This document shows, piece by piece, positions 11,107 to 63,297 of a stretch of 64,000 nucleotides of DNA; positions within the stretch are counted from its first letter, which is position 1, and every line of letters begins with the position of its first letter. This DNA is from Symbiodinium natans. Its lineage: Eukaryota > Sar > Dinophyceae > Suessiales > Symbiodiniaceae. Position numbers and translations under genes: made by a program. The stretch spans positions 534,492-598,491 of the forward strand of contig CAJNDS010000058.1 of assembly GCA_905221605.1 (NCBI GenBank), given 5' to 3'. Below the pieces are notes generated by a model. The model saw nothing but the letters and a program-made list of their open reading frames with translations. It did not search any database and was not told where the DNA came from.

Positions 11107-11203
11107 CTGCGGCAAGTGCGTTTGAGACGTTCCCTCGGTGAACTAAGCATGTAAAGAGGTACTCGCTGATTTCATGCCGGTGCTGCGATGTTTCATGACA
11201 AGC
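11107..11203 (-). CDS. Candidate exon after introner C1
   Basis: Acceptor GGGACAG|GCT, donor GCAG|GTGCCT, 97 nt. Reads ACHETSQHRHEISEYLFTC, then LVHRGNVSNALAA. Confidence 0.6.
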
Positions 11204-11207
11204 CTGT

Positions 11208-11320
11208 CCCAGAGGGTCCCTTTGTAGTACCATTATGGAATTAGGTACCCCCGAAACCCTATTTAGTATGGTTTTTGGTGTATCGAATTCCACAATAGTA
11301 GTAGAAATGGACCCTCTGGG
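11208..11320 (-). mobile_element. Introner C1
   Basis: A 113-bp element with near-perfect inverted ends (CCCAGAGGGTCCATTT type). On the minus strand it separates exons 11317-11400 and 11107-11203. The donor is best read as GA (CCA|GAGGGT) and the acceptor as GGGACAG|G; both flanking junctions are then phase 0. A second copy, C2, lies 84 bp away. Confidence 0.65.
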
Positions 11321-11400
11321 TGTCTTCTGTGCACTGTCCGCATCAACTTTGTTGCGCACGTTGACTGAATGTCGGCTTTGCGATGTTGAGCTTGTGTGAA
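11317..11400 (-). CDS. Candidate exon between introners C2 and C1
   Basis: 84 nt, phase 0 at both ends if the GA donor is used; reads FTQAQHRKADIQSTCATKLM. Another frame is also open. Confidence 0.55.
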
Positions 11401-11404
11401 CTAT

Positions 11405-11513
11405 CCCAGAGGGTCCATTTGTAGTACCATTATGGATTTATAGGGACCTCAAAACCGTATTTAGTATGGTTTTTTGTGAATGCCATAATAGTGCTACAAA
11501 TGGACCCTCTGGG
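11405..11513 (-). mobile_element. Introner C2
   Basis: Sister copy of C1 with the same ends and TGGTACTACAAATGG core. It separates exons 11510-11575 and 11317-11400, with donor CCA|GAGGGT and acceptor GGGATAG. Two adjacent copies around an 84-nt exon argue for independent insertion of mobile introns. Confidence 0.65.
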
Positions 11514-11575
11514 CTATTCGGTCGCTGTTGCATCACAAGCCTTTGATTTCGTGTCCCGGAAAAGTCCGACAGTAC
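11510..11575 (-). CDS. Candidate exon before introner C2
   Basis: 66 nt, acceptor GCTAAG|GTA, GA donor. Reads VLSDFSGTRNQRLVMQQRPN. Confidence 0.6.
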
Positions 11576-11653
11576 CTTAGCGGATGCCGGCACCCTACGC
11601 TCTAAAGCCTAAACTCTAAATTCTAAACCCTAAACCCTGAACCCTGCTGAGCC

Positions 11654-11745
11654 TTCGATTTCACAACATGAGGCGTCAAGTAGGCACCCCATACTTGGGA
11701 TTTCATCAGCAGGTGAACCGTTGAGTACCGAGCGATTTAGCAATT
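11654..11745 (-). CDS. Candidate exon, two frames open
   Basis: Ends CAGCAG|GGTTCAGG. Either STVHLLMKSQVWGAYLTPHV or SVLNGSPADEIPSMGCLLDA can be read; boundaries unresolved. A micro-exon may lie at 11799-11826 (VRLLQQPGF, AG|GTG..GTTTAT). Confidence 0.35.
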
Positions 11746-11884
11746 AGTCCTCTAGGCTCGTCCTCCGAAACCTTTTAGGCCCTCCAAAGACCATAAACGA
11801 AAGCCGGGCTGCTGCAGCAAGCGCACCTGAACGGAAAGGCGCTCCCCCCCCCCCCCCCCCCCCGCGTCCCGGTTGTGCTCACAT

Positions 11885-12057
11885 TCCTACCCTGCACGTG
11901 GAACCACAGATTATGATAATATGTTGCCAGATTTTCTTGGGCTTAACTCCGTTTCGCCATCCACAGACCTCAACTGCGTAGCTTCATATTTGGTATTTGT
12001 CCGTCTTTCCGGTCTTGCCCAGCTGTTCCCGGGCCTCCCAAATTCTGTAGGGTCTAG
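11885..12057 (-). CDS. Candidate exon with one in-frame TGA
   Basis: A single frame reads RIWEAREQLGKTGKTDKYQI, stop TGA, then SYAVEVCGWRNGVKPKK and IWQHIIIICGSTC. Either two exons in the same frame with a very short intron, or a disabled copy. A 110-codon plus-strand frame covers the same DNA. Confidence 0.4.
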
Positions 12058-12060
12058 AGA

Positions 12061-12180
12061 CTTTGCTGCCTTAGGATGTAGTGCTTTCCCTCACGCCAGT
12101 TATTGGTTTCAGGTTGCGTTGATTCCATTGGTTGTTGCAGGATTTGGCCCAATCCGGGTTGCTGCCGATGAGGCCCTAAC
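12061..12180 (-). CDS. Candidate exon
   Basis: Reads LGQILQQPMESTQPETNNWR, then EGKHYILRQQ; polar. Boundaries uncertain. Confidence 0.4.
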
Positions 12181-12391
12181 CCGTTTAGGGTTATGTCACA
12201 CCTAATAATATACCTAAAGTTAGGAGACCCTTCCAAGCCTAACCCTGGTCTTTTCTCACGGCTTCCGGTCCTGTGGGGGTTTAGGGAGGGGTCCTCTAAA
12301 CCCTAAACCCTAAACCCTAAACCCAAAACCCAAAACCCAAAACCCTAAACCGTAAACCCTAAACCCTAAACCCTAAACGCTAAACCCGAAA

Positions 12392-12499
12392 CCTACTTCC
12401 TAAGGCCAAAGCCTGCCCCAAGATCTTGATGGTGCCGCCGCTGATCACCGTGTAGGCAAGGGCCTTGGATCTTACTGGTGCGAAACGGGCGTTGAAGGA
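12392..12499 (-). CDS. Candidate exon, membrane segment
   Basis: 108 nt, acceptor ATCCAG, donor GTTTCG from telomere-like repeat. Reads SFNARFAPVRSKALAYTVIS, then GGTIKILGQALALGS. The GTIKILGQ part would suit a nucleotide-sugar transporter, which is inference. Confidence 0.6.
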
Positions 12500-12747
12500 C
12501 TGGATCCAATTAGGGTGTAGGGTTTATAGGGCTTTGGTGATCCTTTCGTAGGCTTGTACTTTCCTTGGGCTTGGGGCCAAGCAACCCCAAAAGCGTTTAT
12601 GGTTCATATGCCTTAGTAGGAATTATAACCGTATAGGGGGCATGGCCCCAAAACCTGAATCCTAAACCTGAACCCCTGATTCCCAAACCCTAAACCTGTG
12701 GTCACCCAAGGTTAGACCCCATGGTGTGTTGGCTTACGTTTTTCGGG

Positions 12748-12813
12748 CTTAAGTTGAAGCTGCCAAGCTCCTGGCTCCTTTCTCTCCCCTCAGCCCCAAG
12801 CACGCAAACCCGA
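12748..12813 (-). CDS. Candidate exon
   Basis: Reads ERPRVCVLGAEGRERSQELG, ending SFNLS before a GA donor. Confidence 0.5.
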
Positions 12814-12883
12814 GGGCGCTCAAGGGTTTAGGGTTTAGGGTTTAGGGTTTAGGGTTTAGGGTTTAGGGTTTAGGGTTTAGGCC

Positions 12884-13177
12884 CCGAAGCCCCGGAGCCT
12901 GTGAACTGGCCCTCTGCTTTCCCCAAGAGCTGGGGAATATCATGGTCAACTTCCTGTTCCCACACTGGAATTCCAGCAAACGGCAGTTCTCTAAATTCGG
13001 GTCCCAGTCTGGGTCATTACTATCAGGGGTTCCTAGGATCCCAAAAGGGACACTCATGTAGAGAACTCGCCCAATATCAGGCTGGCCTTCAACACCTATA
13101 ACACTTTCCGAGATATTCCGAAGTAAAGCCTCCTGAGACACGACGAAGGGGAAAGGCACATATCCCGGGAGTCCTTC
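12884..13177 (-). CDS. Longest candidate exon, unknown protein
   Basis: About 294 nt. Acceptor GACTAG|GAA gives phase 0. Reads VPFPFVVSQEALLRNISESV, later DIGRVLYMSVPFGILGTPDS and NCRLLEFQCGNRKLTMIFPS. The donor is one of several GC/GT sites near the GGCCTAAACC edge. Composition is convincingly coding; I do not recognise the family. Confidence 0.7.
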
Positions 13178-13353
13178 CTAGTCAGCCAGATGCGCAGCAA
13201 GACACCCTTGACCCTGAAGAGTCTCTTCACAATCCCACCCCCACCCCCCAACCCCCACCCCCCAAACCCCCTAAACCCTAAACCCTAAACCCCAAACCCT
13301 AATACAGATTGGGGTTTAGGATTAGGGTTTCGGTTTGGGGGTGTTGGGTTTCC

Positions 13354-13410
13354 TGAAGAGAATCGGCTCACAGAAGGGTAGGTCAACTGCCGCGAGTTTC
13401 GGAGGCGCCA
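13354..13410 (-). CDS. Candidate exon
   Basis: A C-run precedes KLAAVDLPFCEPILFR; acceptor uncertain (GCAG). Confidence 0.4.
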
Positions 13411-13546
13411 ACCCCCCCCCCCCCCACCCACCCCACCCCTCCCCCCCCCGAAAACCCCCCCCCCCGCCTGCGCTAAGGACCTTCTGAGAAGGTTTAGGGT
13501 TTAGGGTATCGGGTTTAGGGTTTAGGGTTTAGGGCTTAGGGTTTAC

Positions 13547-13609
13547 CATCTTCAGGGCAAGGTTGGAGAGTAAGCTCTCATGTGGACGACCGCGAGGGCG
13601 CAACAAGAC
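13547..13609 (-). CDS. Candidate exon
   Basis: TTTTTGTTCAG|GTC acceptor, donor ATG|GTAAAC, 63 nt. Reads VLLRPRGRPHESLLSNLALK. In phase with 13776-13907 through a GC donor. Confidence 0.65.
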
Positions 13610-13775
13610 CTGAACAAAAACTGTGGGGCTTGAGCTCTACTAAGTTGCCCAGGAACCTAGGCTAAAAAAAGCGCCATTGTTGGCACGAAGGGATTATAAG
13701 GGAACCTAAATCCCCCAAAAAAGAGTATAAGACCACAAACCCTTAAGTAAGGGCAACCCAAAGCTAAAGTAATTG

Positions 13776-13907
13776 CACGGAAAGTGGCTTGAAAGGCTTG
13801 GGCGGACGCGAAAATGAGCGAGATAGGCAGGAACTTGAGGATTTTCCGCACGTCGAACACCTCACTGCTGCTGCCAAGCTCCGACGACGGAGCAGTCGCC
13901 ACAAACT
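13776..13907 (-). CDS. Candidate exon, membrane segment
   Basis: Acceptor TTTGTAG|AG, donor CGT|GCAATT. Reads EFVATAPSSELGSSSEVFDV, then RKILKFLPISLIFASAQAFQ. The KFLPISLIFA part suits a transporter helix. Element G7 lies in the following intron. Confidence 0.6.
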
Positions 13908-14087
13908 CTACAAACCCACTTAACCCTAAACGCTAAACACTACACAATAAACCCTAAAGACTCTGAAACCCTACATAAACAAAGTTTAAGCCCTCAACCC
14001 TACCGGAGCTGGGGTTCCTGTTAGCCTCTGGTCTGCATTGCTTTACAGCCTAAGTCTTATGCGCCCCAAAAGATAGGGGTTGATCTT

Positions 14088-14179
14088 GGGATGTTCACTC
14101 TTATACTCGCAGCCCTTAGGGGTTTTAATAGAGGGTACTATAATCCCGATTAAGGACTGATAGTATAAGGGGGAACATC
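14088..14179. mobile_element. Inverted-repeat element B2
   Basis: Starts GGGATGTTCACTCTTATAC and ends TATAAGGGGGAACATC, with the B core GGGTACTATAATCCC. It lies between candidate exons at 14.38 kb and 14.0 kb. Confidence 0.55.
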
Positions 14180-14376
14180 GAAAAGTTGATCTAAGGTAAG
14201 CGCAGCTGTTGGGGCGTCTGTTACAGTACTGGGACCCTCTTTACGTTTTATGGGTCATACCTGTTATTTAAGGGTGGTTGCTACTAAATTGTAGGTAAAT
14301 AGAGCCCCAGGTATATTCGCATCTGCTTTAGGGTCGCTCAAACATGGCCTGTATGAACAACCCCTAGCCCTAACAC

Positions 14377-14449
14377 GCACAGCCGAGGCACATCAGCCAT
14401 GGACTCCTTTCCAAGAAAGAAGTAGGCAGATCCGATTCCCAATACCACC
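14377..14449 (-). CDS. Candidate exon, membrane segment
   Basis: Acceptor CACTCAG|G, donor GTGTTA. Reads VVLGIGSAYFFLGKESMADV, then PRLC; hydrophobic. Confidence 0.6.
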
Positions 14450-14582
14450 CTGAGTGGAATAGGGTTTAGGGTTTAGGGTTTAGGGTTTAGGGTTTAGGGT
14501 ACTCCAGGATTTGTCTGGTGCCTTCCGTCATGGGCTCTTCTTTCTTTGCATGGCTTGCGGTTTGTGACTTACAGGGGTTGTT

Positions 14583-14685
14583 GGTGCTGAGATCTTTGTT
14601 TCGTGGAGGGCTTTCTATGCCCTCGAAATTTTGGCTGTATCGCCATGTCCGGAAAAATCAGGCGTGCACCGCACCTTCGAGAACC
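14583..14685 (-). CDS. Candidate exon
   Basis: Acceptor GCTGCAG|GGT, canonical donor GTAAGTC, 103 nt. Reads GSRRCGARLIFPDMAIQPKF, then RGHRKPSTKQRSQHQQP. Confidence 0.65.
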
Positions 14686-14756
14686 CTGCAGCTTGGCAAA
14701 GCTTAGGCATGCAAGCTTGCAAACACCTCGCAGCCCGAAGCGTCAAAAGCTTAAAC

Positions 14757-14871
14757 TCTCCACCATAGGAAAGCCGTTGCCCCCAACCAGCAGAAGCCAG
14801 GATATCCAGTATGTAGTCAACAAAACAATCCTGCCTGCATGTCCGGAAGTTGCGACAGCTGTCTTTTTCGC
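14757..14871 (-). CDS. Candidate exon, membrane segment
   Basis: Acceptor GGGTCAG|GCG. Reads AKKTAVATSGHAGRIVLLTT, then YWISWLLLVGGNGFPMV. A GA donor three bases before the GT site puts it in phase with 14583-14685. Confidence 0.65.
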
Positions 14872-15241: not shown

Positions 15242-15350
15242 CCCTAAGGGTCCATGTACCGAATTATCGAATACTTGGGCCTTAAAGTACTTCCTATATA
15301 AGGACTTTTGGGTCTAAGTACATAATAATAAGGTACATGGACCCTTAGGG
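15242..15350 (-). mobile_element. Introner-like element A1
   Basis: A 109-bp element with perfect 19-bp inverted ends (CCCTAAGGGTCCATGTACC). A1, A4 and A6 are nearly identical through the interior (GAATACTTGGGCCTTAAAG and onward). Family A has six copies in the window. It lies between candidate exons 15400-15515 and 15151-15199. Confidence 0.65.
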
Positions 15351-40400: not shown

Positions 40401-43400
40401 TGCAAAAGGTGGCCGGGAGTCGAGTCTCCTGAAAGGCTGCCACATGAATGTTGAGCTCATCAGCCTGCTGTTGCAAAGCTGGCAGTTTGCCCCTGGCGGT
40501 ACACAGATTGGCGGTAAGGACCCGCAGGTCACAAGTATGCACTGGTCCGTGAACAGGGACCTGGGAGTCGTCCAAAACGGCTTTGATGTGGGAAGGGGAA
40601 ACAGTGTCAGCTTGTTCATACTGGCCAGCGCAAAGCTGCTCCAGAGGAGGGAGGTCGTTCGCAGGACTAGCACACCACGCCCAGGGGAGCAGAGGATGGG
40701 CTACAACTCTCCACAAAGTGGTGGGCACAGGAGAGGCGATGACACCTCGACAACCCATGTCCGCAGCTCTGTCTGCCATTTCGTTCCAGAGGTGTCCTTG
40801 GTGGCTCCTGATCCATGCGTGGTGGAGGCGAGGGTCACAGGCATGTCGGAACAAAGTTAGCTGACGGAGGCAGGTATGGACATCAGGCTGCCCTGACGTA
40901 GCATCGTCGCCTGACTGGATCGGTGCTGACCAACCTGCAGCCTCACCTATGGCCAGCCTGGAGTCACTGTGCAACCAAACCGGAATGTGTTGCGCAGAGA
41001 GGGAAAAGGCAGTGGCGACTAGTAACGCGCAAGCCTCAGCAGCATTGTTTGTTTTTGACGTAAAGGGCGAGTCGGGTGCTCCCACGGGGCCTGCTGCGAA
41101 ACCGACCCAGTGGAGTTGCTCCGAAGTGTAGCCAGCATGCTCCGCGCATAAAATCACACCCCAGCCAGCTTTGCCCGAGGTGGCTGAGCCGTCGGTGAAA
41201 ATATGAAAAGCAACGATGGGCCCTTCGGCAACAGTAGATGGGAAGATCTTCTGCCTGAGCTTGCAAGGGAAAGCGTCGAAGTCAGGGCACCAGAAGCCCA
41301 GCCAAGGACTTGCGAGTGCCTTCAAATCAACCCGCATGCGTTGGAGCGAGTCAGGAGTCTCGCTATGCTGTGAAATGGCTTCACTCAGAGGCAAAGAGGG
41401 CGCTTGGACACTTATACCTGGAACCTGGGCACCTAAACCAGCGCCTTGAGCCTGGGCACCTAGGCCTGCGCCTTGAGCCTGTGCACCTGAACCTGTGCCG
41501 AAACCGTCACCTTGCGTCTGGGCAGTTAGGCCTGTGCCTTGAGCCTGTGCACCTACACCTGCGCCTTGAGCCTGGGCACCTGAGCTTGCACCTTCAGCCT
41601 GGGCACATGAACCTGAGCCTGCGCCTTGAGCCTGGGCACCTCGGCCTGCGCCTTGAGCCTGTGCACCTAAGCTTGCGCCTCCAGCCTGGGCACCTGCACC
41701 TTCAGCCTGTGCACCTGAGCCTGCGCCTTGAGCCTGGGCACCCAGGCCTTGAGCCTGTGCACCTTGAGCCTGGGCACCTAGGCCTGCGCCTTGAGCCTGT
41801 GCACCTGAGCCTGTGCCGAAAGCGTCGCCTTGAGTCTGGGCAGCCAGGCCTGCGCCCTGTGCACGTACACCTGCGCCTTGAGCCTGGGCACCTGAGCTTG
41901 CGCCTGGGCCTGTGCCTTGAACCTGTGCGCCTGTGTGAGGGTGCTGGGCACCTGAGCTTGCGCCTTGAGCCTGGGCACCTAAGCCTGCACCTTCAGCCTG
42001 GGCACATGAACCTGAGCCTGCGCCTTGAGCCTGGGCTGGGCCTGCGCCTTGAGCCTGTGCACCTAAGCTTGCGCCTCCAACCTGGGCACCTGCACCTTCA
42101 GCCTGTGCACCTGAGCCTGCGCCTTGAGCCTGGGCACCTAGGCCTTGAGCCTGTGCACCTTGAGCCTGGGCACCTAGGCCTGCGCCTTGAGCCTGTGCAC
42201 CTGAGCCTGTGCCGAAAGCGTCGCCTTGAGTCTGGGCAGCCAGGCCTGCGCCCTGTGCACCTACACCTGCGCCTTGAGCCTGGGCACCTGAGCTTGCGCC
42301 TAGGCCTGTGCCTTGAACCTGTGCGCCTGTGCCTTGAGGGTGCTGGGCACCTGAGCTTGCGCCTTGAGCCTGGGCACCTAAGGCTGCACCTTCAGCCTGG
42401 GCACATGAACCTGAGCCTGCGCCTTGAGCCTGGGCTCGGCCTGCGCCTTGAGCCTGTGCACCTAAGCTTGCGCCTCCAGCCTGGGCGCCTGCACCTTCAG
42501 CCTGTGCACCTGAGCCTGCGCCTTGAGCCTGGGCACCTAGGCCTGCGTCTTCAGCCTGTGCACCTAAGCCTGCACCTTTAGCCTGTGCACCTGAGCCTGC
42601 GCCTTGAGGCTGGGCACCGGGGCCTTGAGCCTGTGCACCTGAGTCTGCGCCTTGAGCATGGGCACCTAAGCCTTGAGCCTGTGCGCCTGCACCTTCAGCC
42701 TGTGCACCTGAGCCTGCGCCTTGAGCCTGGGCACCTAGGCCTTGCGCCTGTGCACCTGAGCCTGCGCCTTGAACCTGCGCACCTAGGCCTTGAGCCTGCG
42801 CACCTGGGCCTTGAGCCCGTGCACCTGGGCCTGCGCCTTGAGCCGGGGCACCTTGGCCTTGAGCCTGTGCACCTGAGCATGCGCCTTGAGCCTGGGCACC
42901 TAGGCCTACAGAGCCTGCGCCTTGCGCCTGGGCACCTGAGGTAGCATGTACAGAGCGTGTACGTCTGGCAGCGTCTTGCGTGCGTGGACAAGAACCTCTG
43001 CATGGAGCCTGGGCACCTAAGCTTGCTTGAGCCTGTGCGTCTGCGCCTGTGCTTTGAGCCTGGGCACCGAAGCCTCGAGCCTGCACACCTGAGCCAGCGT
43101 CTGCATCTGCATTATGAGCGTGGGCACCTGAGCCTTGAGCCTGTACAGCCGAGCCTGTGCCTTGAGCCTGGGCACCTGAACTTGCACCTAGGCCTGTGCC
43201 TTGTGCCTGGGCGCCTTTCTGAGCCCCTGAGCCTGCGCCTCCTGCGTCTCGAGCCTGGACACCTGAGCTTGCACCTAGGTCTGAGCCGAAGGCGAACTTG
43301 GTGAGGGCACTGAGGGATGCATGTTGGCGCCCCGGCAAGACAGGTAAGCGCTGGCACACCGGGGCGGGCTCGCAAGAAGGTCCAGCGCGGGACCGCCCCG

Positions 43401-45723
43401 GTAAAGGACCCGTTACCGGGGCGTGGACACCCGAGCTTGCGCCTGAAGCCTGGGCACCTGACCTGCCTTGAGCCTGAGCACATAAGCCCGCGGCTGGAGC
43501 GTGGGTACGTCGGCTTGTGCCTTGAGCCTGGGCCGCACCTGCAAGCTGAGCACCAAAACCAGCGCCTTGGCCCTCACTTGGAGCCTGCACACCTAAGCCT
43601 GTGCCTGGAGCCTCAGCAAAGCCTGCGCGTTGAGCCTGTGCATGGGCGCCTGGGGCCTGGGCACCTGAGTCTTTGCCTGGAGCCTGGCCACCTAAGCTGT
43701 CTGGCACTGCGCCTTGAACCTGTGCAGCAGCCTGGACACCTAAGCCTGTGCGCTGTGCCTGAGTGTGTGAACCTGTGGCTGCAGAGCACATACCTGTGAC
43801 CTGAACCTGGGCACCTAAGCCTGTGCCTTGAGCCTGGCCACCTTGAGCTTGAGCACCCAAGTCTGCGCCATGAGCCTGGGCACCTAAACCTGTGCCTGGA
43901 GGTTGCCCGCCTTGAACCTGGGCACCTGAACCTGTGCCTGAAGCCTGCGCACCAAAGCCTGCGCCTGCAGCCTGGGCACCTAAGCCTGCGCCTGGAGTCT
44001 GGGCACCTGAGCCTATGCCTGGAGCCTGAACACCTAGGGTATGTTCTGAAAGAAACAGATTCCGGTTCGCAAACGAAAAACTATGTACAAATGGCGCGGT
44101 TGCGTCACGAAACTCAGCAACATGGGGCCAAGCCTCGCGGCAAAGCTTTCTGTAGGCGTCGTCCGTACATGGCACGCCTCGCAGCTGGAAAGCTACCCTA
44201 CATCGAAAAAGCGGCGCGCCCTTTTTAAAACAAGAGCTCAGCCCTACCTTACAGTGCAACTCAGATGATACAACCAACCTTGATGCAGGGCCATCAGACT
44301 CATCCGCAAGAGGATCTAGGAGGCTACCGCTGTACACTGTGTCACCCCCGCCGTACACAGAGTCATCGGTTCCTCCGATCCGTCTCAGGTCGCCGGATGG
44401 CGCTGCGTCAGAGTTGGAAATGAGGTCATCGTCAACGCGAGGGTCAACCCAGGTGTCTGTACCACATAGCACATCACCCCGAAGAGCTATCGCTTGACGG
44501 AACGCATCGAGCTCGCTCACAAAGTCCGCCTCATGCGTGACGCTGTGTGCGGCTGTGTGCCTGAGGGGTCCCCGAAGGCTCGTCCCCAGGCCATTCAAAA
44601 AGGCTGACGTCCAGCCTCCTTGGGTGCCTTGGCAGCAGAGGAGTGCAAGGGCTTTTCCGAATCCTTGGACCCTCTCCCGTTCCCCGGCAACGGCGCCCAT
44701 GTCCGCTGCAGCCTTGACATTTGCCAGAGCCTCTTGCAGCTTCCGGTGGCATGAAGAGAGCTCCTCCCGCTTGGCCTCCACTTTTGCGTCGGTCTCGGCT
44801 GCACGATCCGTCTCCATGTCTGACATCTGGTCGCTGTCGGTGGCCTCCCCACCTTTTTCGCTGTCCTTGGCGGCCAGCTTCAGCTCCTTCGTCGCCTCGG
44901 CAAGTTGCATTGCCCATTCTTGTTCCTTCTTGTCCAAGCTGGAGAGCGTGACTTCCCGTTGTTCCCACTGCTCCTGCAGAGTTCGCATAAGGTCGCTGGC
45001 ATAGCGGCTCCATGACTGCTCGAACGCCATGCGCTCCTCCCGGATAGACGACAGGTGCCGCTTCGCCTCGCTGCGCCGCGCAACCAAGCGATGAAGGTGC
45101 TTGGCATCCGACTTCACATTGAGCTGCTCTTTCTGCTTCAGAAGGCCGCGGATTGCATCTGGAAGTTCGTCTTGGCGAATATGCGGGATGAGTGCCTCCA
45201 ACAACTTGCTGTCCTCTGCTGCGTCCGACACTGCTAGCAGGGCCGGTTCCTTGGGCGCAGGTGGTTCCTTTGCAGAAGGCGGCTTGGGCAACTGTCTTGT
45301 TGCAGGCACCTTTGGGGTCTGCTGCTTTCCCTTGCCTTTGCCCTTTTCCTTCTCTCCCTGCTCTGAAGCACGGGCATTGTTGCTTGGCTGTCTCCTTCGC
45401 CGGGGTGAAGCACGACGCCGTGGGCTCTCCCAACGTTCTGACCTCCAGGGCGCCGAAATCGCCGCCACTGTATAGCTGCTCGCGTTGCTCGCTGGCACGG
45501 TGTAGGTCTGAAGTTGTCCACCACAGACTTGGCAGAAAGCCGCTCTGCTCGACCTGTTGGCGTAGCACTTGTCGCACCAGGAGTGCGTTGTCATAGCTTC
45601 CGTTGGCGGACTCGCCGCTAACTTCTGTAGGGCTTGTCGGGGTAACGAAGACTTGGCGTGGTGACCTTGAAGTCGATGGATAGATGCCAAAATTCGCGGC
45701 CGAGGGACTTTCACCCCAACCAC
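37384..45723 (-). CDS. LINE polyprotein: zinc ribbon, coiled coil, GAQ repeat, RNase H, endonuclease, reverse transcriptase
   Basis: A 2779-codon frame; Met44 (position 45594) is a likely start just before a zinc ribbon with Cys50, Cys53, Cys64 and Cys67. A Lys/Arg-rich stretch and a charged, probably coiled-coil region follow (about 100-370). Next come about 880 residues of Gly/Ala/Gln repeat (about 562-1441). RNase H spans about 1500-1655 (FTDGSA, NNAAEA, HSDSR, NEMADRAAD give the acidic residues). The endonuclease/exonuclease/phosphatase domain spans about 1732-1970 (QETRL, GDANAK, RLDYI, HHDDH). The reverse transcriptase spans about 2280-2520 (LLFVDTRAAF, RPGDTVSDALF, WADD). Having RNase H ahead of the endonuclease is unusual, since LINE RNase H normally follows the RT. 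The frame stops at 37384, but coding potential continues in another frame, so this copy looks frameshifted. Confidence 0.85.
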   Translation of the reverse strand: MVGVKVPRPRILASIHRLQGHHAKSSLPRQALQKLAASPPTEAMTTHSWCDKCYANRSSRAAFCQVCGGQLQTYTVPASNASSYTVAAISAPWRSERWESPRRRASPRRRRQPSNNARASEQGEKEKGKGKGKQQTPKVPATRQLPKPPSAKEPPAPKEPALLAVSDAAEDSKLLEALIPHIRQDELPDAIRGLLKQKEQLNVKSDAKHLHRLVARRSEAKRHLSSIREERMAFEQSWSRYASDLMRTLQEQWEQREVTLSSLDKKEQEWAMQLAEATKELKLAAKDSEKGGEATDSDQMSDMETDRAAETDAKVEAKREELSSCHRKLQEALANVKAAADMGAVAGERERVQGFGKALALLCCQGTQGGWTSAFLNGLGTSLRGPLRHTAAHSVTHEADFVSELDAFRQAIALRGDVLCGTDTWVDPRVDDDLISNSDAAPSGDLRRIGGTDDSVYGGGDTVYSGSLLDPLADESDGPASRLVVSSELHCKVGLSSCFKKGAPLFRCRVAFQLRGVPCTDDAYRKLCREAWPHVAEFRDATAPFVHSFSFANRNLFLSEHTLGVQAPGIGSGAQTPGAGLGAQAAGAGFGAQASGTGSGAQVQGGQPPGTGLGAQAHGADLGAQAQGGQAQGTGLGAQVQVTGMCSAATGSHTQAQRTGLGVQAAAQVQGAVPDSLGGQAPGKDSGAQAPGAHAQAQRAGFAEAPGTGLGVQAPSEGQGAGFGAQLAGAAQAQGTSRRTHAPAAGLCAQAQGRSGAQASGASSGVHAPVTGPLPGRSRAGPSCEPAPVCQRLPVLPGRQHASLSALTKFAFGSDLGASSGVQARDAGGAGSGAQKGAQAQGTGLGASSGAQAQGTGSAVQAQGSGAHAHNADADAGSGVQARGFGAQAQSTGADAQAQASLGAQAPCRGSCPRTQDAARRTRSVHATSGAQAQGAGSVGLGAQAQGACSGAQAQGQGAPAQGAGPGARAQGPGAQAQGLGAQVQGAGSGAQAQGLGAQAQGAGSGAQAEGAGAQAQGLGAHAQGADSGAQAQGPGAQPQGAGSGAQAKGAGLGAQAEDAGLGAQAQGAGSGAQAEGAGAQAGGASLGAQAQGAGRAQAQGAGSGSCAQAEGAALGAQAQGASSGAQHPQGTGAQVQGTGLGASSGAQAQGAGVGAQGAGLAAQTQGDAFGTGSGAQAQGAGLGAQAQGAQAQGLGAQAQGAGSGAQAEGAGAQVGGASLGAQAQGAGPAQAQGAGSGSCAQAEGAGLGAQAQGASSGAQHPHTGAQVQGTGPGASSGAQAQGAGVRAQGAGLAAQTQGDAFGTGSGAQAQGAGLGAQAQGAQAQGLGAQAQGAGSGAQAEGAGAQAGGASLGAQAQGAGRGAQAQGAGSGSCAQAEGASSGAQAQGAGVGAQAQGTGLTAQTQGDGFGTGSGAQAQGAGLGAQAQGAGLGAQVPGISVQAPSLPLSEAISQHSETPDSLQRMRVDLKALASPWLGFWCPDFDAFPCKLRQKIFPSTVAEGPIVAFHIFTDGSATSGKAGWGVILCAEHAGYTSEQLHWVGFAAGPVGAPDSPFTSKTNNAAEACALLVATAFSLSAQHIPVWLHSDSRLAIGEAAGWSAPIQSGDDATSGQPDVHTCLRQLTLFRHACDPRLHHAWIRSHQGHLWNEMADRAADMGCRGVIASPVPTTLWRVVAHPLLPWAWCASPANDLPPLEQLCAGQYEQADTVSPSHIKAVLDDSQVPVHGPVHTCDLRVLTANLCTARGKLPALQQQADELNIHVAAFQETRLPATFCKGTWLRFHSAAAAGHEGCALWFRSSVPWVSGQLGSCVSHEHFSVLHSSPTCLAVSHSSPWCRALFTTFHAPHSLSPLEVREAWWNDFDHKLQRWARNWPIVLLGDANAKISIESQPHVGTVAVGAQDWAGERISQLCARFGLALLNTHAHILQGADPFTWRQSRLDYIAAPLAHFTQAKVVPEHGFDLLNHHDDHKALVMDISLFSKGSSAATPPRNTFRSLAPEAYAAVAASVCANSIPWQCDVHSHAETLLKAARNRLFHHQAEQKASPARKAYVSEAALQSLRARKTAKKQLVLAEKRCRTLQLKRAIARWHRPGRPVPPDLRPPKMDRWCVALWQHTVSLTILTVRLQLNMDRVAYATNIAQKLKEGTIDRDSKAVYRALRCLRPASKNVQKPWGPLPVVTDASGYTAQCFAEAQDIRAKHFGALEVADPLNARELAEMVQPTPKPSEPFDIKELPTLLMLETALRKLAPGKASGLSGVPNELWRANAPACARHWFPLLVKQQVRITEPVRFSTSMLLTLLKKGAEASISGHRAIYLFEGIGKVFRRLHRSALVEELNCLRPTCLQGSVPGSDSSQLTHYLCTLLRIAADTSTSLALLFVDTRAAFYRVIRQCLATQQLDDEALCQILARMQVKPTTVHTVLEWIQGKALTAGMSAHNQAIVNSWFAHAGFVARGQKVVHRTQVGTRPGDTVSDALFGFVMCDALVEIRERMHSEGLLSGPGEGPLVQPAWADDLCVPVHATRCSELRPRLIRACAIVHSAYVRRAMDPNYNRGKTEAICALHGEGAKCAKTRLLQDEHVVSVPDAHGPPVHLSVVHRYVHLGTTLDAQADPAPDLDRKAAQALSATRPLGRHVFRNSAIPLSGRWTLFQEVPLAMAVHNVGVWIPTAPALHAWESKICSALRYLLPEDRRTHHPAYPNMPELCGILRAYCPAALLLMQRMRLLVRIFRSDNQSLWDLLCTHARCSADTWLAQIQRDLAFAMEWAPALFDRPLLPALSTTC
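41400..44040 (-). repeat. Coding minisatellite, 27-nt (and 21-nt) units encoding Gly-Ala-Gln repeats in the LINE
   Basis: About 2.6 kb of near-perfect repeats. On the minus strand the common unit encodes nine residues of the type GAQAQGAGL or GAQAQGAGS; shorter seven-residue GLGAQAQ units and larger duplicated blocks (about 560 nt, around 41.6-42.5 kb) also occur. The frame stays open throughout, so the tract is kept as protein. A long frame on the plus strand over the same DNA (41310-42581) is a by-product of the repeat. A role as a flexible or condensing linker is possible but inferred. Confidence 0.85.
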
Positions 45724-46182
45724 AAAGTTTCGCAGAGTTGTACGAGCCTGACACCTGCGCTTTCTCAGCTGTCTGTGCCAAGCTGGTTCTGGCCTCGCCG
45801 TTGTTGAACAGGAGCTCCGCGCCGAAGTGCGTGCCCACGGGGACGGTCAGGAAGATGAAGAGGAAAAAGGCTGATGCAATGGGCCTCAAAAGTCCACAAC
45901 GCATGCACTGTCCTGTCCTCGCCGTCGTATCGCCACAATTCCGGTTGGGGCGCCACCCCCAAAAGAAAAGGCTTTGGCACTAAATGGATCGTTGGCCGAA
46001 AGAAAGGCAGCAAGTCACACAGATAGTCCACGAGGTCAACCCTCAAGCCACACGCAGTTGGCTGATCAAACAGCAGCAGTGCGGAATGGCAGAGGGCGCG
46101 GTGATCGTTCACACGCTAGGGTATGGCCCGGTGGTGGATCCCAGCAAAGGGGGAAAACTACACACACCTGAAGCCAAACACC
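45724..46182 (-). other. 5' region of the LINE; alternative upstream frame
   Basis: This stretch lies between the telomere-like flank and the main frame. A 457-codon frame starts at 45904 on the same strand and begins with a hydrophobic, signal-like segment (FFLFIFLTVPVG). It overlaps the main frame in another register, and beyond about 45600 it is probably a shadow. It may be the 5' UTR with an internal promoter or a short upstream ORF; nothing decisive is visible. Confidence 0.35.
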
Positions 46183-47369: not shown

Positions 47370-47891
47370 GTAGCATATATTCGTATATGACTATGCGAGT
47401 ATATTTGCCTGTGGTTCTTAGAGTCTTGCATGATTAGACTGCTTCATGATGATAGGATTATATTTCTAGACTACACCATTAAGTTCTGCTTAGTAGCCCT
47501 GTAGCAATCTCCTAATAAAGGGGACCCCTTTTGTGATTGGCGACCTTTGCCATGAGAACCTAGAACCCAGATAGGCCAAAGGGCAGTACCTGGCTACTTA
47601 CCAAGTATACTTGGAGGTTCATGGTACTTATTTACAAATTATAATTGTACTTCGAAATATACATATGACCATATTAGTGCACTTAAGTGGCTTGTAAGTG
47701 GGCGATAAGTACAGCTATAATTGGTTAATAAGTACCATGCCTTGCAATGTACGATCCCCACGGCCGAGTCCTTCGTTTTCCTAGAGCTTCCGAGACCCTA
47801 CAAAAGCCTGAGCTTTAACTCAGACTTTGCAGGTTTTACAACCCTAAACCCGAAGCCCTAAACCCTAAACCCTAAACCCTAAACCCTAAAC
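47370..47891. other. Intron-like stretch
   Basis: AT-rich sequence, element K2 and a CCCTAAA tract (47838-47896). No coding segment supported. Confidence 0.5.
47608..47751. mobile_element. Inverted-repeat element K2
   Basis: Ends CATGGTACTTATTTAC and its complement GTTAATAAGTACCATG match over about 33 bp. The outer TACTTGGAGGTT motif is shared with K1 and K3. Confidence 0.55.
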
Positions 47892-48117: not shown

Positions 48118-48205
48118 GTTCTTAGTAGGGAAGGAGGGAATTAGGGCTCTAATACCTTTAAGGGATTATACAGCACCCTAATTCCCTCATTCCCTACTAA
48201 GAACC
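48118..48205 (-). mobile_element. Introner I1
   Basis: An 88-bp element with about 27-bp inverted ends (GGTTCTTAGTAGGGAATGAG type). On the minus strand exon 48205-48436 ends CTG|GTTCTTAG, so the left repeat supplies the donor. Confidence 0.6.
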
Positions 48206-48436: not shown

Positions 48437-48529
48437 CTGCTTCGTGCAGAAGACAACTGGGAAGACACATGTCAGATTTCTGCCTCAAAGCCTTGAACCT
48501 TCTTGAGGAGCATGTTTCCTAAAGGCAAT

Positions 48530-48622
48530 GGCAAATAGCAATAATCATAACAGTAGAAATAATAATAGTGATAATAATAACAATAACAATAATAATCATC
48601 ATAATAATAACACTAATAAGAA
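48530..48622. repeat. AAT/ATA-rich simple repeat
   Basis: Imperfect AATAATAAC-type repeat, A+T rich. Confidence 0.8.
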
Positions 48623-48793
48623 GAAGCAGCTACACTGGCCACAGCAGCGCGGTCCTGTGTGAAGACCCCGATGGTGTTCCTGAGCCCCCTCAGTGCAGCC
48701 GCTGCTTCCGGTGTGAAAGCTCGCGTCTCCTTAGTTGGGTTTAGGGCTTAGGGTTTAGGGTTTCGGGTTTAGGGTCTAGGGTTTAGGGTCTAG

Positions 48794-48846
48794 AGGGGAT
48801 TATAGTATCCCCAAAAAGTGTAGAGTGTACTCACTCAGCAACTAAG
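48794..48846 (-). mobile_element. Half element E3 joined to telomere-like repeat
   Basis: Only the right half of family E (TTATAGTATCCCC to CTCACTCAGCAACTAAG) is present; TTTAGGG repeat directly replaces the left half. Its end supplies the donor GTTGCTGAG for exon 48843-48994. Confidence 0.55.
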
Positions 48847-48994
48847 TCTCCATCGTCCCTTGTGCCATCGCCCTCCTCTGCGCATCCGCTTGTTCCGCTT
48901 GACAGCCGACGCAGGGGCGTCCAAGACAGGGCCTCCACTTTGGAGGAAGTCTGCACTTTGGACGAGATGATCTCAGCTGGCCCTTCATCAATTC
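48843..48994 (-). CDS. Candidate exon after introner S2
   Basis: 152 nt. Reads ELMKGQLRSSRPKCRLPPKW, then RPCLGRPCVGCQAEQADAQR; basic and Cys-rich. Follows the SAM-like exon in phase 0. The donor GTTGCTGAG lies at the E3 edge. Confidence 0.65.
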
Positions 48995-49113
48995 CTTGGT
49001 AGCCCTATGTAACCAGATTACAATAAGGGCACCCTGTTTGGGTTGGCTATTTTTTAATAAGGGAACCCAATAAACCAACAAAAAGGGTAAAGGGTAACCA
49101 CTGCGCTACCAAG
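48994..49113 (-). mobile_element. Introner S2
   Basis: About 120 bp with inverted ends (CTTGGTAGCNCAGTGGTTACC type). On the minus strand it splits a SAM-like coding region: exon 49110-49196 ends ATCTTG|GTAGCG, and exon 48843-48994 follows CTACCAAG|G. Both junctions are phase 0. Confidence 0.65.
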
Positions 49114-49196
49114 ATTCCGTACGCCATGAGCTGCCAGGGCGACAGGCTTACCAGAGCTTCACCATTGACGTGATGCTTCTCGAGGGCTGCGGTAGC
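49110..49196 (-). CDS. Candidate exon, SAM-domain-like
   Basis: 87 nt, phase 0, CATGTGAG|GCT..TTG|GTAGCG. Reads ATAALEKHHVNGEALVSLSP, then WQLMAYGIL. This matches the idG-aLL-Lt-edL--lGI core of sterile alpha motif domains, which mediate protein-protein (sometimes RNA) binding. Domain call by eye only. Confidence 0.65.
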
Positions 49197-49953: not shown

Positions 49954-50062
49954 CCCTAAGGGTCCATGTACCTAATTATGGAATACTTGGGCCTTAAAGT
50001 ACTTCCTATATAAGGACTTTGGGGTCTAAGTATATAATAATAAGGTACATGGACCCTTAGGG
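49954..50062 (-). mobile_element. Introner-like element A4
   Basis: Near-identical to A1, with perfect ends. On the minus strand it directly follows the hydrophobic exon 50063-50135 and ends GGGATAG, the same acceptor style as C2. Confidence 0.65.
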
Positions 50063-58884: not shown

Positions 58885-58889
58885 GGGGA

Positions 58890-59218: not shown

Positions 59219-59239
59219 TTCAAAGGGATTTAGAGCGCT

Positions 59240-59290: not shown

Positions 59291-59962
59291 ATCCCCTGCA
59301 ACCCTAAACCCTAAACCCTAAACCCTAAACCCTAAACCCTAAACCCTAAACCCTAAACCCTAAACCCTAAACCCCAAGCAAGCCCACCACTTCATACTGT
59401 GTAGGGCAAACACAAATAGATAAATAAATATAAACAAATAAATAAATAAATATATACATATATATATATACACACGCACATTTAAACTTATTAGTTTCTT
59501 CAAAAAAAGCCAAAGCCCTAAACTCTAACCAGTACAAACTACCGCTAAAGATAGTCTTGCAAACAAATGGGACCCCAAATCCTATTCAATCCTTCATCCT
59601 CTGCCCGAAAAACCCTCAGCTCCCCTAAACCCTAAGCCCTAAGCCCTAAACCCCAAACCCTATATAAACCCTAAACCCCAAACCCCAAACCCTAAACCCT
59701 AAACCCTATACCTTCTAAGTAGGGCTACAGCTTAGGTTTCGGCTTTGGGGGGCCTCTCCAACTTCAGCTTTTCAGGGTTTAGGGTCTTAAGCTCAGCAGA
59801 AACTCGGCTTCTGCAGGGCCTTGTGCTGGACAGCGGGTTTAGGGTTTAGGGTTTAAGGATAGGGTTAGGGTTTAGAGTTTAGGATCTAGGGTTTAGGGTT
59901 TAGGGTTCAGGGTCTGGGGTTTGGTTGTTGGTGGTTGGTGGTTTGGTGGTTGCTCAGATAGT
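59291..59962. other. Intron-like stretch
   Basis: CCCTAAA tract (59299-59375), AT microsatellite (59415-59475), then more tracts. No coding segment supported. Confidence 0.5.
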
Positions 59963-60066
59963 TAGGCGTCAGTGAGGAGCTTCTGTTGGCAAACCGATAA
60001 ACCTTGCACCATGTGCCTCTTCTCCACCCCGGGCCTGTTCAAGAACTCCAAACCCTGTGCCTTAAC
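59963..60066 (-). CDS. Candidate exon after introner D5, possible 3' end of a gene
   Basis: CTGGAG|GTT, phase 0. Reads VKAQGLEFLNRPGVEKRHMV, then QGLSVCQQKLLTDA and a TAA. Either a terminal exon, or it splices out earlier at TCG|GTTTGC. Confidence 0.65.
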
Positions 60067-60185
60067 CTCCAGAACCGTATGTCGGTTTTCGATATTAGGG
60101 TACGTTATCTGGGGGTCCTTATTATCAGAGGATCCCTGTCATTTGAGGTCTAGAGTAGGGGTCCTCATTTTCTTTCGCCCCCTAC
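60067..60185 (-). mobile_element. Introner D5, an inverted-repeat element acting as an intron
   Basis: Best-supported member of family D. On the minus strand the upstream exon (60186-60248, 21 codons) ends before GTAGGGGGCG. The element then carries the family core (a GGATCC-like centre and an ATTAGGGTAC block) and ends before GAG|GTT of the next exon (59963-60066). Both junctions are phase 0. Its ends match those of D1, D3 and D6 as inverted repeats with mismatches. Introners are transposon-derived introns known from dinoflagellates and other protists; assigning this family to them is inference. Confidence 0.65.
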
Positions 60186-60248
60186 AATCGCACGAGCCTC
60201 AGCGGATTCCTTTGAGAGCTCATTGGCCCTCTCGGCGTGCTTCCACGC
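60186..60248 (-). CDS. Candidate exon before introner D5
   Basis: 63 nt, GATGACAG|GCG..ATT|GTAGGG. Reads AWKHAERANELSKESAEARA; charged helix. Confidence 0.7.
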
Positions 60249-60317
60249 CTGTCATCTAAACGCTAAACCCTACACCCCACCCTAAAATTTAAGAAGCTGA
60301 ATATGACCAGCGGGGAC

Positions 60318-60430
60318 CCTGAGCATCCTGTAAACAAAGCCGAACATGTCTGAGCTCTGAGACTCTGGATTCATGTGCAGATAGATCCGCGCATTGGGGA
60401 AAGCGACCCACCACTTCGACCCCAAAGGAG
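60318..60430 (-). CDS. Candidate exon
   Basis: Pyrimidine-rich DNA precedes the acceptor. Reads LGSKWWVAFPNARIYLHMNP, then SSDMFGFVYRMLR; donor GTCCCC. Confidence 0.65.
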
Positions 60431-60861
60431 CTGCTTGGGGAGGGGGGGGGGGGAGGGGAAGGGGGGAAGGGGCGGGGGGGAAGGGGCGGGAGGGAGGGGA
60501 AGGGGCTCATAACCTAAACCTCCAGGATCCTACACCCCCACTAAAATTCAAAGTTTACGGTTTAGGGTTCTGGGTTGTCCGCCCAAACCCTAAACCCTCA
60601 ACCCTCAAGCCTGAACCCTGAGCCCTTCCTCACTATCGTCGACGCCAAGTCCTGCCTAACCCAAAGCCCTTGAAGCCCTTAGCCCCAAGCCCCAAACCCC
60701 AAACCCCAAACCCCAAACCCTAAACCCCAAACCCCAAACCCGAAACCCGAAACCCTAAACCCTAAACCCTAAACCCTAAGGCCCTAAACCCTAAACCCTC
60801 AATGGCCCCATAAAGCCCCCGAAGGCCATGAAGTCCCTGGCTTTGGCGACGCATTCCAAGG

Positions 60862-60905
60862 CACCTCGTGGATGGCATGCTCCCGGGCCTTAGTTTCGGT
60901 GGCCC
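60862..60905 (-). CDS. Candidate exon
   Basis: TCAAAG|G..GAG|GTGCCT; ATETKAREHAIHE. Confidence 0.6.
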
Positions 60906-60927
60906 TTTGAGGGTCGTTTGGTTTGGG

Positions 60928-61215
60928 GTTTAGGGTTTAGGGTTTAGGGTTTAGGGTTTAGGGTTTAGGGTTTAGGGTTTAGGGTTTAGGGTGTGGGTTT
61001 AGGGTTTAGGGTTTAGGGTTTAGGGTTTAGGGTTTTGGGTTTAGGGTTTAGGGTTCAGGGTTCAGGGTTTGGGGTTTGGGGTTTGGGGTTTAGCGTTTAG
61101 GGTGTAGGGTTTAGGGCTTAGGGTTTAGGGTTTAGGGTTTGGGGTTTGGGGTTTGGGGTTTAGGGTTTGGGGTTTGGGGTTTAGGGTTTTAGGGTTTTGG
61201 GTTTGGGGTGTAGGT
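60928..61215 (+). repeat. TTTAGGG / TTTGGGG tract
   Basis: About 285 bp; perfect TTTAGGG first, then TTTGGGG-rich. Confidence 0.85.
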
Positions 61216-61275
61216 TTTACAGAGGTGGAGGGAATGCAGCCAACGCGTTCGGGCTTCAGGGTTCAGGGCATAAAC

Positions 61276-61420
61276 CGCAAATCCTCCTCAAACAGGTACT
61301 AAAACCTAAACCCTCAACCCTCACCCCGAAGCCCCTTTTAACAAAGAGACGAGTCCTCCTCAAAAAGGTACTAAACCCGGACGGAACCCTCAACCCTCAC
61401 CCCTAAAGCCCCTTTTACCC
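61276..61420. repeat. Tandem duplication of about 73 bp
   Basis: TCCTCCTCAAANAGGTACTAAA and ACCCTCAACCCTCACCCC occur twice in the same order. Confidence 0.6.
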
Positions 61421-61454
61421 TAAACCCTTAACCCTAAACCCTAAACCCTAAACC

Positions 61455-61600
61455 CGCCCGCCACCCCACTCTCTGGTCTTTTGGGGTAGGCGGGCGCTGG
61501 TCGAGCGCTCAGTGAGACCCTGCGAGGGAGCCCCACCGAGCTGGCCTCCAGGCTGGCTTACCCTCCAGGCAGGCACAGGCCGAGTCAGCAGTTGTCACTG
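61455..61600 (-). CDS. Two candidate exons (61555-61600 and 61455-61549)
   Basis: First: TTTADSACACLE-like, donor GTAAGC. Second: CTGGAG|GCC, ASSVGLPRRVSLSARPAPAY, donor GTTTAGGG. Confidence 0.5.
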
Positions 61601-61634
61601 TATTTTCTTAAATTACCCTAAACCCCGCTGTCCG

Positions 61635-61975
61635 CGCACCTTGGCCCTGGCCCTGGCCCTGGCCCCTGGCCCTGGGTCTGGCCCTGGCCCTGGCCCTGGC
61701 CCTGGCCCTGGCCTGGCCTTGACCTAATTCTGCCCTCTGGCCCTGACCCTGGCCCTCTGACCCTAGCCCTGGCCCTGCACCCTGAAATCGGCCCTGGCCC
61801 TGGCTGGCCCCTGGCCTGGCCCTGGCCCTGGCCCTGGCCCTGGCCCTGGCCCTGGCCCTGGCCCTGGCCCTGGCCCTGGCCCTGGCCCTGGCCCTGGCCC
61901 TGGCCCGGCCCTGGCGCTGCCCTCTGGCCCTGGCCTGGCCCTGGCCTGGCCCTGGCTCTGCCTGTCCTCCTGACC
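61635..61975. repeat. CCCTGG hexamer array
   Basis: About 340 bp, mostly perfect CCCTGG. On the minus strand it would encode Gly-Gln repeats in an open frame (61618-62061); a coding role is not shown. Confidence 0.85.
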
Positions 61976-61999
61976 GTGCGCCAGTTTTGCGGCTCTGGC

Positions 62000-62330
62000 C
62001 CTGGCCTCTGGCCTGTTCGAGTCATCTTACCCCCTTGCGCCAAGCCAAGCTGTCCGCGCACCAGTTTGTGTCCTGTTTCGGGGCGCTCTCCCTCTGGCTC
62101 CAGCCCTGCTTCCGTGGCGCTCTGCCCAACCCAAGCTGTTCACTGTGTGTTCTTCCTGGCTGGAGCCCCTTCGCGCCATCGCTGCCTCTCTTCTGTTCCT
62201 GGCCCATCCCTTAGCCCCTTCGCGCCAGCCCAAGCTGTCTTCACGGACCCTGCCTCGTTTCCGTCTGCTGCAGCTTTGCGCCTGGTCCACGCACCTTGTG
62301 CAAATCCCCAGAAAGGGCGTGAGTGCTGAC
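62000..62330. repeat. Three degenerate units of about 90 bp
   Basis: CCCAAGCTGT-like motifs recur at about 62045, 62130 and 62232, each followed by similar sequence. Several frames are open on both strands; none stands out. Confidence 0.45.
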
Positions 62331-62414
62331 TCATGTGATGCTTTGTAAAAAAAATAAAAGGTCTTAACTCCTTGAGAGTTGTAAGTGGGCGGGGTGGGTA
62401 GGTCTGCAGACTAC

Positions 62415-62450
62415 CGCGCGCTCCCAAAGCGCGCTCCCGTCTGGCACGCC
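62415..62450 (-). CDS. Candidate exon with telomeric acceptor
   Basis: 36 nt, TTTAG|GGC..GCG|GTAGTC; GVPDGSALWERA. Confidence 0.6.
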
Positions 62451-62517
62451 CTAAACCCTAATCCCTAAACCCTAAACCCTAATCCCTAAACCCTAAAGCC
62501 CCCTTTAAGAAAGATAC

Positions 62518-62578
62518 CAGCCCATGAGGCCCTGGCGGAATAGGCGAGGACATCTGCTGATGACTCTTTCGACTCATC
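62518..62578 (-). CDS. Candidate exon
   Basis: GTGTGCAG|GAT..CTG|GTATCT; DESKESSADVLAYSARASW. Confidence 0.65.
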
Positions 62579-62814
62579 CTGCACACAAACCCTAAACCCT
62601 AAACCCTAAACCCTAAACCCTAAACCCTAAACCCTAAACCCTAAACCCTAAACCCTAAACCCTAAACCCAACTTCTTGTTACTGAGCTTGGAACCCTAGC
62701 AAAAACTATTTTTTGCTGTTTCTGAGGAATTGTAGTACCCAAAAGTTAAAAACTATTTCCAAGTCTCCCTAAGACGTGTCGGAAGGAGGAGCATTCTGAA
62801 GGAACTTCTTCGTG

Positions 62815-62952
62815 GGAAGCCCATATAGGACTTTGGGATTTGGGGTTCAGGCACGGTTTATTCAAGGGTTGACTTAGTGTGCTAGATGAGAAGGGAAGCC
62901 TAGATAGGATTTGGGATTATTTGGGGTTGATTCAGGGGTTGACCTAGGGCGT
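62815..62952. repeat. Tandem duplication of about 70 bp
   Basis: GGGAAGCCNANATAGGA, ATTTGGGGTT and AAGGGTTGACTTAG-type blocks appear twice. Confidence 0.55.
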
Positions 62953-62995
62953 AAACTAGCTAGCGCCTTGGGAATGTCCGGACTATCACAAACAC

Positions 62996-63105
62996 ATAGT
63001 TGCTGATTTCATAAGCCCCCCCAAAAGTGTACACTTTTGGTTTTGTAGAGATTATAGTATCCCGAAAAGTGTATAAAGTGTACTCACTCAGCTACTAAGA
63101 ACATG
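62996..63105. mobile_element. Inverted-repeat element E2
   Basis: Ends TAGTTGCTGATTTCAT and ACTCACTCAGCTACTAAG are imperfect inverted repeats. The centre has a TTATAGTATCCC block shared with E3. Confidence 0.5.
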
Positions 63106-63143
63106 TAGTTACCAGTGTCACTGTGGTCCGATTCGACGCTTAC

Positions 63144-63183
63144 CTGCATACACGAAGTTTCACAGACGTCGGATGAGATGGCG
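63144..63183 (-). CDS. Candidate exon after introner D4
   Basis: GGGACAG..CAG|GTAAGC; AISSDVCETSCMQ. Confidence 0.65.
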
Positions 63184-63297
63184 CTGTCCCAACATAATGG
63201 ACTCCGAATATAGGACTCCCCCCCAAATAGCAAGATTCTCTTATCATATGGACCCCAAGAAGGTACCCCTAATTTCGGAAACCCCCCAGATTAAGAC
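63184..63297 (-). mobile_element. Introner D4
   Basis: A 114-nt intron between exons 63298-63347 and 63144-63183. The donor is GTCTTA, the acceptor ends GGGACAG, and the junction is phase 2 with one codon split AA|C. Its body (plus strand AAGGTACCCCTAATTTCGG) is the family D right arm. Confidence 0.65.

Follow-up and report, generated by a model that had tools for sequence, protein, structure and literature searches.

Introduction

The closest described counterparts of the elements considered here are the family 1 introners of Symbiodinium microadriaticum (Gozashti et al. 2022, PMC9860276), which, as presented there, have terminal inverted repeats, are bordered by a 4-bp duplication, and carry their own 3' splice site, the 5' splice site being taken from the duplication. 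This published case bears out the statement, made in a preliminary description of the DNA analyzed here, that introners (mobile introns) are established in dinoflagellates. Several introner families per genome are described for Polarella glacialis and other dinoflagellates (Roy et al. 2023, as cited in the review PMC11453091), and introns with inverted repeats are reported in several dinoflagellates (PMC10666404). Table 2 of the latter work gives the donors of Symbiodinium natans as GT (23.6%), GC (58%), and GA (18.4%), with AGG at 97.1% of acceptors. The introners of Amoebophrya are described as having inverted repeats at both ends, short direct border repeats, and mostly non-canonical splice sites (PMC7789003). 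Here we analyze a 64-kb stretch of S. natans contig CAJNDS010000058.1 (hereafter the window), which belongs to an assembly totalling 759,417,921 bases in 2543 contigs, together with copies of its short inverted-repeat elements elsewhere in the genome. This genome very probably contains mobile introns of the introner type; a group of the elements that we call family E would be among them.

Miniature inverted-repeat transposable elements (MITEs) are non-autonomous DNA transposons with terminal inverted repeats. In all likelihood, as judged from sequence, the window holds a mixture of hairpin-forming, non-autonomous MITE-like transposons in which a CTTRG...CYAAG type with a 4-bp duplication makes spliceosomal introns and two other families, A and B, do not. 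To the CTTRG...CYAAG type we assign the family E copy at 48995-49113 and a degraded family E copy at 31324-31436; the elements at 48730-48846 and 62995-63099 are probable relatives.

Results

Loci fetched around element copies outside the window are given L numbers, and the copies tested comprise 28 of family A, 30 of family B, and 30 of family E, with eight further copies of family D. The 30 family E copies, fetched from 40 scored among 1451 candidates, have the terminal repeats CTTGGTAGC...GCTACCAAG in common; the element ends in AG in 28 of them, and an exact 4-bp target duplication is present in 15. Read in the sense direction, the arrangement is GNNN-CTTGG...CCAAG|GNNN, which corresponds to an intron of the GT-AG, GC-AG, or GA-AG class with a G after the acceptor; donors of these three kinds are plausible because dinoflagellates use them (PMC10666404). 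Family E is short, has terminal inverted repeats and a target duplication, and occurs in many copies, and so bears the marks of a MITE, as do families A and B. Two near-full family E copies (L021 and L024) and a 31-base fragment (L017) turned up in the 174,146 bases that make up the 56 loci of families A and B, and the data suggest, very roughly, thousands of family E copies per genome. Inspection by eye places the copies in L063, L068, L069, L070, and L088 next to TTTAGGG-like arrays. Since some copies lie outside genes, family E appears to be a transposon that is able to become an intron rather than an intron only.

Repeated family E sequence occupies predicted intron positions of unrelated genes, by homology in L084 (two sites), L024, and L065, and by frame only in L086 (five sites), L074, and L087. 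L084 contains two family E-type elements (1502-1612 and 2182-2288), and the protein predicted after removal of both shows 52% identity over 99% of the query to a Symbiodinium sp. KB8 protein, a match that is a protein record only. The alignment is gap-free at both element junctions; its two gaps lie elsewhere, one of nine residues, where exon pieces were abutted across another, undefined intron, and one of a single residue in GWWG. L024, which was fetched for family A, has a family E copy within a Decapeptide-repeat gene, and the best stretch of the Decapeptide domain match (Pfam, E = 9.1e-33) covers residues 2-70 and spans the junction near residue 31; a homologue search with the L024 protein found none. 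Removal of family E leaves protein length unchanged in these two loci, the L084 junctions being gap-free and the L024 domain match continuous. Moreover, in both loci the element and one copy of the duplication fill the entire coding gap, with no residual intron sequence. In L065, a PRMT-type gene is interrupted near residue 37, and this junction lies within PDB matches that cover residues 2-130 or 5-130. L075 carries a sushi-like gene, in which the Pfam match (0.00047) at the family E junction is limited to the left side.

The homology-supported family E junctions all fit GT/GC/GA-AG followed by G, and the orientation of the element is that of the gene strand in five of five homology-based cases (L024, L065, L075, and twice in L084). 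Orientation also agrees in the frame-only cases, namely L074 (twice), L087, the window copy, and L086 (five times); these count for less, as the choice of frame already took the donor into account.

L075 also contains, at 2392-2539, an element of a different terminal-repeat family, CTTGGGGAGC...GTCCCCAAG. A second splice-ready family is possible, because a weak sushi match (0.0062, under the cut-off) extends over the junction of this element. More elements with exact 4-bp duplications and several types of terminal repeat were observed in gene-bearing loci (L065:100-246, L075:2392-2539, L075:1948-2049, and L074:755-929), and their duplications are donor-compatible on the presumed gene strand.

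The window copy of family E, CTTGGTAGC...GCTACCAAG, is an introner-type element on the minus strand (48995-49113) with an AG end and an exact 4-bp duplication. Both copies of the target duplication read GAAT on the minus strand. The one at 49114-49117 would contribute a GA donor, and the second, at 48991-48994, would form the start of the downstream exon (AG|G) if the element is spliced. The putative intron, 48995-49117 on the minus strand, ends CCAAG|GAATTG and would be of the GA-AG class if used. Against 317 codon-score controls, its joined minus-strand flanks reach the 97th percentile, and comparison of the through-frame with random deletions gives p = 0.32. A probable relative, CTTAGTTG...CAACTAAG, lies at 48730-48846 on the minus strand between TCTC duplications (48726-48729 and 48847-48850), which read GAGA on the minus strand and would provide a GA donor. 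This element is donor-compatible on the same strand as the 48995-49113 copy, the two putative introns being 144 bases apart; it has TTTAGGG-like repeats inside, and its minus-strand codon score reaches the 90th percentile only. A period-3 signal at 48451-48751 was rejected as a sign of coding, since on reading it is an AAT-type microsatellite. The degraded family E copy at 31324-31436 (minus strand) is 72% identical to the 48995 copy; no target duplication was found around it, and its codon score lies at the 62nd percentile. Family G is of the same general type. Its element at 62995-63099 (coordinates given here and below without a strand denote unstranded features) has an AACA duplication on both sides that offers no donor on either strand, and a second copy at 20835-20939 is without a matching duplication.

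Frames interrupted by family E can be followed in L086, where five copies within 2.5 kb, all in a single orientation, split two long frames. When the copies are removed from the first duplication base to the AG, one frame of 1140 nt results, with three putative introns taken out, and another of 981 nt, with two; four of the duplications are exact (GTGC, GAAT, GCTG, and GCTC) and one is inexact (GCAG/GCCA). For the 30 fetched copies as a group, a strand was taken to offer a donor if its duplication read G followed by T, C, or A, read AGG followed by one of these three bases, or had the form NAGG. Strands that offer a donor at exact-duplication copies have longer in-phase open flanks (median 129 nt vs 46 nt; 9 vs 21 strand cases, p = 0.004), as do those in the set that includes inexact copies (55 vs 39 nt; 17 vs 43 cases, p = 0.043).

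Several results weigh against the reading of family E as an introner and bear on how far it can be pressed. The donor rule was framed after some of the tested copies had been viewed and one copy was counted on both strands, so that the p-values of the flank comparison serve as guides. In L062 and L067 the open flanks are long, yet no donor is offered. The real set of joins in L086 ranks just 9 of 243 in a frame-shift control, because other frames are open too, and the duplications are inexact at the first L086 element and in L080. Only three of the 30 family E copies exceed the 95% control level of a codon score that was trained on 658 codons, mostly from coding-looking family E loci, with the scored locus left out (L065 contributed 8 codons). 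The PDB matches of L065 are modest (E = 0.00066-0.0032), and its Pfam match (8.3e-5) is below the curated cut-off and lies to the right of the junction. Pfam gives no family for the L074, L080, L084, L086, and L087 proteins, and in the PDB L074 is without a match and L084 has weak, unrelated matches only. Finally, a homologue search with the joined protein at 48995-49113 found none; because Pfam is also silent and rival reading frames are equally plausible there, a working gene at this position is unproven.

The window as a whole has a G+C content of 52%, and TTTAGGG-like arrays in both orientations (for example 3889-4140 and 10272-10598) make up about 24% of it by our own mask. An inverted-repeat pair was counted when two 16-base arms were complementary at 14 or more positions, overlaps being disallowed, and by this measure the window has 15 pairs compared with 0-2 in each of 10 Markov control sequences; the short inverted-repeat elements noted in the preliminary description are thus far above chance. 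Three of the 15 pairs (18671, 20190, and 27250) remain telomere-like, and the pair at 38284 falls in a retroelement. The short elements group into about ten families, in keeping with the earlier count of at least ten, and relatives of most occur in contigs fetched for other reasons. The window has no Rfam match at gathering thresholds. Six-frame Pfam searches of 10-34 kb and 46-64 kb found no family at E = 0.001; the region 36.7-46 kb was covered via four open frames only. Within the wider region 36711-46115, a 2820-residue open frame (37387-45846, minus strand) looks by eye like a non-long terminal repeat (non-LTR) retrotransposon, with RNase H, endonuclease, and reverse transcriptase in that order, RNase H preceding the endonuclease. 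This frame has no Pfam match at 0.001.

Six sites, all inside the Pfam-scanned segments, had been described as places where an inverted-repeat element fills the gap between two coding segments that join in phase. We compared these joins with 3000 random 115-base deletions and found them to be no better: the through-frame is equalled or surpassed in 32-92% of the deletions, and the length of the shorter side is matched or exceeded in 12-83%. The median best of six frames in the random deletions is already 222 nt, so that openness alone is no basis for inferring an intron. The six elements were accordingly rejected as introners on window evidence alone, and we would caution more generally that in-phase joining across a repeat in a single window is weak evidence. 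An inverted-repeat element is indeed present at 11208-11320 and 11405-11513 (family A) and at 31324-31436 and 48995-49113 (family E), but 60067-60185 is without an inverted repeat and 63184-63297 is a truncated copy that lacks the 5' terminal repeat.

Families A and B, with terminal repeats CCCAGAGGGTCC and CCCTAAGGGTCC, respectively, are MITE-like transposons with no sign, by any rule that we applied to their sequences, of being introners. In the window, family A is present at 11208-11320, with a 3-bp TGT duplication, and at 11405-11513, with CTAT on both sides, neither of which fits an introner rule; family B is present at 49954-50062, with a 3-bp TAT duplication, and at 15242-15350. Among the genome copies, an exact 3-bp duplication borders 24 of 28 in family A and 24 of 30 in family B. 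The element boundary carries AG in 0/28 and 0/30 copies, and GGG in 25/28 and 30/30. The flanks of these copies show no excess of openness over matched, non-telomeric controls (p = 0.74 for A and 0.995 for B). A codon score above the 95% control level is reached by one of 28 family A copies, that in the gene-containing locus L024, and by none of the 30 of family B. An early enrichment of open flanks in family A (p = 0.0017) was discarded; the controls had included TTTAGGG-like arrays, and the effect was gone with matched controls. The sole GT...AG pair noticed near the ends of family B, CCCTAAGG|GTCC...CTTAG|GG, would leave 13 extra bases and therefore shift the frame, a point reasoned from the sequence. 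Of 1727 family B candidates, 40 were scored, and the copies listed match the query at 98-100% identity, which points to a recent spread of this family. An exact scan of viral contigs with a 19-base family B end gave no match. In L054 (approximately 1501-1609), a family B copy is apparently nested inside a family H element, an arrangement that fits recent family B activity.

The remaining families are more briefly described. The truncated family D copy (63172-63293, at site 63184-63297) is without the 5' terminal repeat of other copies, whose terminal repeats lie around TGGGGGTTT...AAACCCCCA; eight further family D copies read by eye have no consistent duplication or AG end. The stretch at 60067-60185, earlier called an inverted-repeat element, has no perfect arms of at least 7 bases at a spacing of at least 40, and it has no match among the 88 genome loci compared. 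Family H (CTTGGAGGTTCATG...) is present at 47610-47750 and in L012, L033, L048, L066, and L072. Several copies have a TA duplication, which offers no donor, and CT...AG can also be read at the ends of this family. Family F has copies at 1905-2003 and 14085-14180, and family J lies at 48121-48201. Extension of the introner reading to all of the approximately ten families is not supported, genome copies having been compared for families A, B, D, and E.

Discussion

The terminal repeat of family E ends in AG, so that the element would bring its own 3' splice site to each new location. The duplicated target is usually GNNN; one copy would serve as the 5' splice site (GT, GC, or GA), the other would place a G directly after the acceptor (AG|G), and splicing would remove the element with one copy of the duplication, restoring the former reading frame. 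Transposition would depend on an unseen transposase, and an autonomous transposon of this system would be expected to have CTTGGTAG ends and a 4-bp duplication. The transposon presumably lands widely and is kept in exons where it can be spliced; selection may be the cause of both the association with donors and the sense orientation.

That every family is an introner, with A, B, D, and the 60067 stretch spliced as well, is a reading to which we assign very little probability. Families A, B, and D are short elements with terminal repeats, families do lie between joinable frames, and the joined flanks at 60067 stand at the 94th percentile of the codon-score control. Nevertheless, AG is found at the boundary in none of 58 A and B copies, whose flanks and codon scores resemble those of controls, the window joins are at chance level, and the 60067 stretch has no inverted repeat. 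The earlier proposal that several introner families are active in one genome is therefore retained for family E (31324 and 48994), on the strength of its splice rule and of protein homology at other loci, and is not supported for A and B, with their 3-bp duplications, boundaries without AG, and flanks not enriched in coding sequence, nor for the D copy at 63184 and the 60067 stretch, which show no splice rule.

Alternatively, all of the families, E included, might be MITEs that jumped into pre-existing introns, their intron position being coincidental. Family E has all the MITE marks and some of its copies lie outside genes (L063, L068, L069, L070, and L088), as this would lead one to expect, but an element that entered an existing intron would still be bordered by the ends of that intron, and in L084 and L024 the element and one duplication copy make up the whole coding gap; we consider such an origin highly unlikely. 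Scarcely any probability attaches to removal of the elements as hairpin-type, non-canonical introns like those of Amoebophrya, for which the splice dinucleotides would be irrelevant and A and B might be spliced too. As described for Amoebophrya (PMC7789003), the ends of the elements carry terminal inverted repeats along with short direct repeats, yet every homology-supported junction conforms to GT-AG, GC-AG, or GA-AG with a G after it, open flanks are longer on strands that bear a donor, and A and B are without coding enrichment. Intron formation by family E through its AG end and duplicated target thus seems to us the reading to carry forward.

So read, the mechanism of family E matches that of the published Symbiodinium introners, and family E is a known kind of element. 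It has the same 4-bp duplication, terminal repeats, and splice-site origins as are described for S. microadriaticum, a comparison of anatomy and not of sequence. What differs from the account of that species is that many copies in and out of genes are considered here, and that other hairpin families of this genome are shown not to follow the pattern. Compared with the several families described for Polarella glacialis, only family E, and perhaps the second family at L075:2392-2539, is supported here. With the Amoebophrya introners, as described, family E shares the repeats at its ends and borders, but it fits GT/GC/GA-AG instead. All of the families here resemble MITEs in their length of about 100 bp, terminal repeats, lack of coding capacity, and many copies, with exact 3-bp duplications in A and B.

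We offer tentatively, as a possibility rather than an expectation, that comparable intron-capable and intron-incapable hairpin transposons stand side by side in S. natans, the recipe for the former being an AG-ending repeat, a G-initial 4-bp duplication, and a sense-strand interior. Should elements of the CTTRG...CYAAG type account for much of the intron complement, the relaxed GT/GC/GA donors and the AG|G acceptors would be a footprint of their target duplication. Intron-making transposons can in this way be separated by explicit rules from look-alike hairpin repeats in one genome, and a simple reason is suggested for the GT/GC/GA donors and AG|G acceptors of dinoflagellates, namely that this very pattern would follow if a transposon takes its donor from the duplicated target and that target starts with G.

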